From positions 1 to 28,297 of IMG/VR virus record IMGVR_UViG_3300037493_000610: a DNA stretch of 28,297 nt; one strand, written 5' to 3'. The notes beneath the pieces were generated by a model, which was given only the letters and a program-made list of their open reading frames with translations, made no database searches and was not told the DNA's origin. The position numbers were made by a program, and so were the translations under genes. Below, piece by piece: positions 2,006 to 2,077 of the stretch. Origin of the DNA: a virus. Position 1 is the first letter of the stretch, and every line of letters starts with the position of its first letter.

Positions 2006-2077
2006 TTATTTGTTCATTACGTACATTGTAACTTCAAAGCCAAAACGCATTTCTGTAGCTGCTGGTGATGTCCACAT
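2006..2077 (-). CDS. pqqA: PqqA, pyrroloquinoline quinone precursor peptide
   Basis: A 23-residue peptide matching PqqA along its whole length. It has the MWT-P N-terminus, the T-E-M-R-F centre and the diagnostic G-F-E-V-T-M-Y block, with Glu15 and Tyr19 at the exact positions that PqqE crosslinks during PQQ synthesis, then a short basic end. AAAGGA (2091-2086) lies eight bases before the ATG, and a strong leftward terminator follows the stop. Known biology: PqqA is the sole source of PQQ atoms; it is bound by PqqD and modified by PqqE, PqqF/G, PqqB and PqqC. None of those is present here, so host enzymes must be used. The ending resembles Methylophilaceae PqqA from memory. The gene is inverted within the early block and can easily be missed because of its size. 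Confidence 0.93.
   Translation of the reverse strand: [23 protein letters not shown]

Follow-up and report, generated by a model that had tools for sequence, protein, structure and literature searches.

Does a phage that infects methanol-oxidizing bacteria supply its host with PqqA, the consumable precursor peptide of the PQQ cofactor, while borrowing the rest of the pathway? This question is raised by a 23-codon ORF in the window, which is the whole stretch of DNA analyzed here, a linear virus record of 28,297 bp with tailed-phage genes for TerL, portal, major head and tape measure. The initial annotation, made from the sequence alone, read this ORF as PqqA with Glu15 and Tyr19 at the PqqA positions, preceded by AAAGGA and followed by a terminator.

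The pqqA gene and its conservation

The gene and its ribosome-binding site lie as follows.

2006..2077, minus strand: pqqA, an ATG, 22 further codons and TAA, encoding 23 residues with the cross-link residues Glu15 and Tyr19
2086..2091, minus strand: Shine-Dalgarno (SD) sequence AAAGGA, 8 nt before the ATG

The window peptide passed the curated PqqA cut-offs over the full model length, scoring 37.9 bits against PF08042 (cut-off 21.1, E=1.7e-9) and 34.4 bits against TIGR02107 (cut-off 20, E=1.4e-8), and its Glu-x3-Tyr cross-link pair (E15/Y19) sits in a GFEVTMY-type core. The peptide differs from the commonest Methylophilaceae PqqA, a member of the same families, by one residue (T4S), and its coding sequence is 2/69 nt away from the nearest host copies and equally 2/69 nt away from other phages. 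These matches identify the ORF as a predicted PqqA, as had been proposed, with the AAAGGA spaced eight bases from the ATG, at 2091-2086.

To find relatives, we used degenerate DNA patterns, the first of which spans 7 residues. This pattern retrieved at least 120 other viral loci, and all of the matches listed encode full-length PqqA-like peptides, almost all of them with an SD-like sequence ahead; in two further IMG/VR scans, 205 of the 207 listed matches were likewise full-length and PqqA-like. Among the 107 distinct viral coding sequences in the matches listed, scored solely at codons that the search pattern leaves free, pS was 0.55 and pN 0.15 (ratio 0.27), and residues W2, P5 and R11 were invariant. 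Stop codons in this frame, or loss of Glu15 or Tyr19, had been named by the initial annotation as signs against its assignment. We found no stop codons in the pqqA frame of related viruses and no Tyr19-substituted viral PqqA in a targeted scan, and the two matches from a corresponding scan for Glu15 variants were rejected as not being PqqA. Together, these patterns indicate that the phage peptide is kept under purifying selection, with both cross-link residues conserved. They also bear on the possibility that the peptide is an antagonist, competing with host PqqA or jamming PqqD/PqqE and thereby shutting down PQQ synthesis, as a substrate analogue could do in principle; with the cross-linked Glu and Tyr both kept, and a peptide that matches host PqqA exactly or at all positions but one, we consider this very improbable.

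Carriers, and the missing remainder of the pathway

The initial annotation further suggested that so small a gene might be widespread and unannotated, and that the same peptide should be sought in related phages. Both expectations were borne out. A survey of 50,697 phage records yielded standalone pqqA genes in P19250A, MEP301, Venkman, MEP401, MEP402, four Melnitz phages and one uncultured Manatee Spring phage; nine of these are cultured Methylophilales/Methylophilaceae phages, and nearly all true phage matches are methylophages. Five of the records lack a gene annotation under the pqqA match, and where Melnitz and Manatee Spring records were inspected, the ORF annotated at pqqA runs on the opposite strand. 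Other NCBI-listed Methylophilales phages, outside the pqqA matches, are MEP431-434, Venkman EXVC038S and HIM624-A (a partial genome). SAR11-infecting TerL relatives of Venkman and MEP301 were not among the pqqA matches, so that pqqA presence tracks methylotrophy of the host and not phage ancestry. Two kinds of match were rejected: that of Escherichia phage ERS-1 (E=10), as chance, and that of Acinetobacter phage MD-2021a (CAKLQF020000010.1), which is bacterial DNA with ppk and pqqABCDE and looks like mislabelled host DNA. Both Acinetobacter matches belong to one named organism, and this was the one inspected.

In IMG/VR, more than 320 contigs were checked and almost all encode true PqqA. These counts are lower bounds, as at least 120 matches came from the first scan by pattern and again from each of two sub-scans for rare codons. 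Because the two rare-codon subsets (GTG and ACC) make up just 5/107 and 6/107 of the first listed sample, extrapolation puts the IMG/VR total at roughly 2,000 carriers or more. Divergent PqqAs, mostly without the operator described below, occurred in eight viral loci, which suggests phages of other PQQ-making hosts.

The phage was also proposed to supply only the substrate, and the wider survey agrees: each of 44/44 virus records carries one pqqA, PqqE was above cut-off in 0/47 virus records, and a PqqB signature was seen in none of the ~330 viral loci among the matches listed. One 72 kb record (L043) carries pqqA (41887-41943) and a methanol dehydrogenase gene (34049-35731) whose product is 87.5% identical to the OM43 enzyme, a combination resembling that described in a passage on Lake Baikal phage populations (PMC7678222).

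On the host side, pqqA is present in 121/121 Methylophilaceae genomes, at 1-12 copies each, and published counts (PMC4109929) list 3-12 pqqA copies alongside what is usually a single set of the remaining pqq genes, so that the hosts themselves already amplify substrate dosage. In Methylosinus trichosporium OB3b, pqqA expression is ~70-fold above that of pqqE (PMC3615186). Both the multiple copies and the excess of transcripts are as expected, because PqqA is consumed once per PQQ.

These surveys also settle whether the ORF could have arisen by chance or through host DNA in a viral assembly. Although 23-codon ORFs are common, and one 'Acinetobacter phage' match is truly bacterial pqqABCDE DNA, the window holds the genes of a tailed phage, cultured phages carry pqqA, and pqqB is found in none of the ~330 viral loci listed; we regard this explanation as refuted. 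Found in phage genomes that include cultured phages of the relevant hosts, host-derived and under purifying selection, the window gene qualifies as a putative auxiliary metabolic gene (AMG).

A cassette with a PQQ-operator-like site

Around pqqA, alignment and folding delineate the following elements.

1986..2169, minus strand: mobile pqqA cassette of ~184 bp (operator, promoter, leader, pqqA and post-stop dyad), defined by alignment edges
2150..2167, minus strand: PQQ-operator-like site TAATGGTTTTCCGTATTG, an imperfect dyad at the 5' edge of the cassette
2125..2130, minus strand: probable -10 element CAGAAT, from alignment and 8-mer positions; GCATAAT/GTATAAT in relatives
2099..2116, minus strand: GTACACA-CTGA-TGTGTAC, a hairpin or dyad in the leader right ahead of the SD, with base-paired changes in relatives
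1987..2005, minus strand: perfect dyad GTATATAC-ATT-GTATATAC, directly after the stop codon
1953..1984, minus strand: intrinsic terminator, stem ACCCCACA/UGUGGGGU followed by U6, from folding; G+C-rich stem at 1984-1958

Alignments of the window with six other pqqA loci, including that of P19250A, extend up to 188 bp and stop at 2169, and besides the cassette the window has little or no nucleotide similarity to these contigs, with few weak matches. Consistent with this, a megablast of the window's first 25 kb against all phages gave a sole match, at 1999-2095, comprising pqqA and its SD, with 90% identity to P19250A and 87% to MEP301. Against host loci, similarity ends inside the leader, at 2122 at the furthest, and the leader of the window's cassette family is of the phage type; the distance from operator to ATG is ~92 bp (median) in phage and ~126 bp in host. 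Coding identity alone was rejected as proof of phage-to-phage transfer because host copies are equally close; better evidence of transfer is the shared promoter region, whose edges lie at 1986-2169.

The same pattern recurs across the phages. Of 6160 phage pairs with a pqqA match, 5190 share no further nucleotide similarity in the DNA compared, and the gene occurs in 97 different immediate contexts, forming at least 44 neighborhood groups when lineages are counted by immediate neighbors (single-linkage clustering on shared proteins of any kind proved too permissive). Roughly one third of the phage loci have pqqA antisense to both neighbors; the window gene was scored as co-directional with its neighbors, an assignment made uncertain by the short ORFs there. 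These observations show pqqA to travel as a cassette among otherwise dissimilar phages.

In nine loci, pqqA lies directly 3' of a gene belonging to one family of phage genes, the longest member of which resembles a major capsid protein, and some copies may accordingly be read in a late operon.

No convincing -35 element was found in the window cassette, and a generic search for a canonical sigma-70 promoter performed no better than on shuffles. Stems of at least 7 bp occur in 21% of phage leaders vs 2.8% of shuffles, and the leader hairpin could serve as an mRNA 5' stabiliser or as a second binding site. Downstream, the post-stop dyad and terminator have a predicted folding energy of -20.5 kcal/mol (z -3.75; none of the shuffles equaled it), and the terminator noted initially after the stop codon is thus recovered as a stem followed by TTTTTT. 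A simple terminator scan did not pick it up, its loop probably being over the scan's size limit, and an Rfam NsiR1 match over this region was dismissed (22 bits vs a gathering threshold of 39).

Phage 'moron' genes sit between other phage genes as self-contained units that bring a promoter and a terminator of their own. The pqqA unit shares with them many insertion contexts, sharp edges, a folded terminator and a putative promoter, and differs in that its operator appears to belong to a host metabolic regulon. As for morons of lysogens, extra pqqA dosage could mainly help prophage-bearing cells rather than lytic infection, in keeping with the unit's own operator and terminator, its antisense placement in about a third of loci and the existence of Methylophilaceae phages with integrase (PMC13059738). 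However, the carriers of pqqA include the T4-type myophage Melnitz as well as P19250A, Venkman, MEP301 and MEP401/402, and integrase is absent from the full isolate annotations of MEP301 and Venkman, making a role chiefly in lysogens unlikely.

Upstream of phage pqqA, unsupervised motif finding recovered TaATGaTTTTc.ttAt (inferred site fraction 0.90, n=116); ahead of host pqqA it recovered TcATGAattTcaTtAG (0.96, n=124). Motif log-likelihoods were about ten times lower in shuffled sets. The two motifs are one imperfect dyad. A model trained on host sequences only scored at least 12 bits in 53/123 phage upstream regions, vs ~0.001 expected per region from a background taken from the remainder of the same phage DNA, where the site is nearly absent. 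In ~200 loci kept out of training, the phage model found the site in 81/114 and the host model in 33/114 of the Methylophilaceae-type copies (background ~0.002); a strong site is missing in ~30% of Methylophilaceae-type phage copies and in most copies of other types. Furthermore, the motif positions form a conserved island within variable sequence, and the starts of alignments cluster at the operator. In the window, the phage model ranks 2150-2167 first (21.6 bits, next 10.1) and the host model ranks it only second (9.3 bits), after an unrelated site at 19253 (10.2 bits), so that the case for the window's own operator rests on its phage relatives.

Methylophilaceae pqqA resembles the phage gene in its related upstream operator, found ahead of multi-copy orphan genes. 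In LSUCC0665, a complete OM43 genome, the strongest sites lie at an orphan pqqA and at a tandem pqqA pair, and a palindromic site, CTCATGAATTCCATGAG, precedes pqqB-C-D. In streamlined OM43/Methylopumilus-type genomes (e.g. LSUCC0665 768149), pqqBCD is headed by the near-perfect palindrome CTCATGAnnnnCATGAG, of the form CTCATGA-www-TCATGAG, and across Methylophilaceae a strong site precedes the pqqA-pqqB or pqqB unit in 28/30 loci. No site was detected ahead of LSUCC0665's xoxF-type methanol dehydrogenase gene, and a general methanol-oxidation element was therefore rejected. By motif comparison, the 5' edge of the phage cassette is the same element that stands ahead of pqqA genes and of the pqqBCD operon in the hosts.

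Such a site could instead act as a decoy, its replicated copies titrating the host regulator and de-regulating host PQQ genes, with the peptide secondary. Conservation does begin sharply, on the 5' side, at the operator, and infection multiplies the phage DNA. Yet purifying selection on the peptide is strong and E15/Y19 are invariant, most pqqA copies in phages of other hosts lack the site, and the site is almost absent from other phage DNA, which leaves the decoy improbable.

Proposed substrate supply under host control

We consider it quite probable that the self-contained pqqA cassette of this Methylophilaceae tailed phage adds pqqA dosage under host PQQ control, borrowing host PqqB-E. According to this model, a host regulator acting on the operator would switch phage pqqA on together with the host PQQ genes; the extra peptide would be cross-linked by host PqqD/PqqE and completed by host PqqB, PqqC and proteases. 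Because each PQQ uses up one PqqA, the added dosage would maintain or raise PQQ during infection, and this supply would sustain the PQQ-dependent XoxF/MxaF methanol dehydrogenase, the main point at which energy enters the host, throughout phage replication. From the biochemistry, continued PQQ supply and methanol oxidation in infection are a reasonable expectation. With slightly less confidence, we think it likely that unrelated methylotroph phages have repeatedly acquired a portable 'PQQ cassette', consisting of operator, promoter and minimal substrate gene, thereby joining the host cofactor regulon and pushing cofactor supply and methanol oxidation.

Cyanophage photosynthesis AMGs such as psbA supply a rapidly consumed host component of an energy-yielding step. 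Those genes encode an enzyme or structural protein, whereas here the phage supplies a 23-residue biosynthetic substrate with a host-type operator.

Phage PqqA itself is already known, from one sentence and one list entry. The sentence concerns the Lake Baikal phage population VP_266, in which PqqA was proposed, as here, to support methanol oxidation (PMC7678222); VP_266 differs in being a T4-like phage where pqqA is one of several AMGs beside a phage methanol dehydrogenase, and the passage contains no small-gene survey, cassette or operator. The list, of reservoir-sediment viruses, likewise treats viral pqqA as an AMG, together with pqqE and pqqD, framed as phosphate solubilisation, and the entry carries no peptide, host or regulation analysis (PMC13188868). 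Papers on OM43 phages (PMC8024684, PMC8163748, PMC9004378, PMC10580990) do not mention phage PqqA, and PQQ figures in them solely as a medium component. Within the open-access literature, excluding subscription-only papers and preprints, the ubiquity of phage pqqA, its cassette and its PQQ operator appear to be new.

The gene described here is widespread among phages and smaller than gene callers usually accept, and what it supplies is not an enzyme but a consumable biosynthetic substrate; its carriers are phages of methanol oxidizers in freshwater and the coastal sea. The shared operator would define a Methylophilaceae PQQ regulon and gives a DNA bait for its regulator, the 23-residue peptide offers a metagenome marker for methylotroph phages, and phage manipulation of cofactor supply becomes directly testable. 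If the portable-cassette reading is true, a unit of less than 200 bp, usually missed by annotation, would push methanol oxidation in lakes and coasts.
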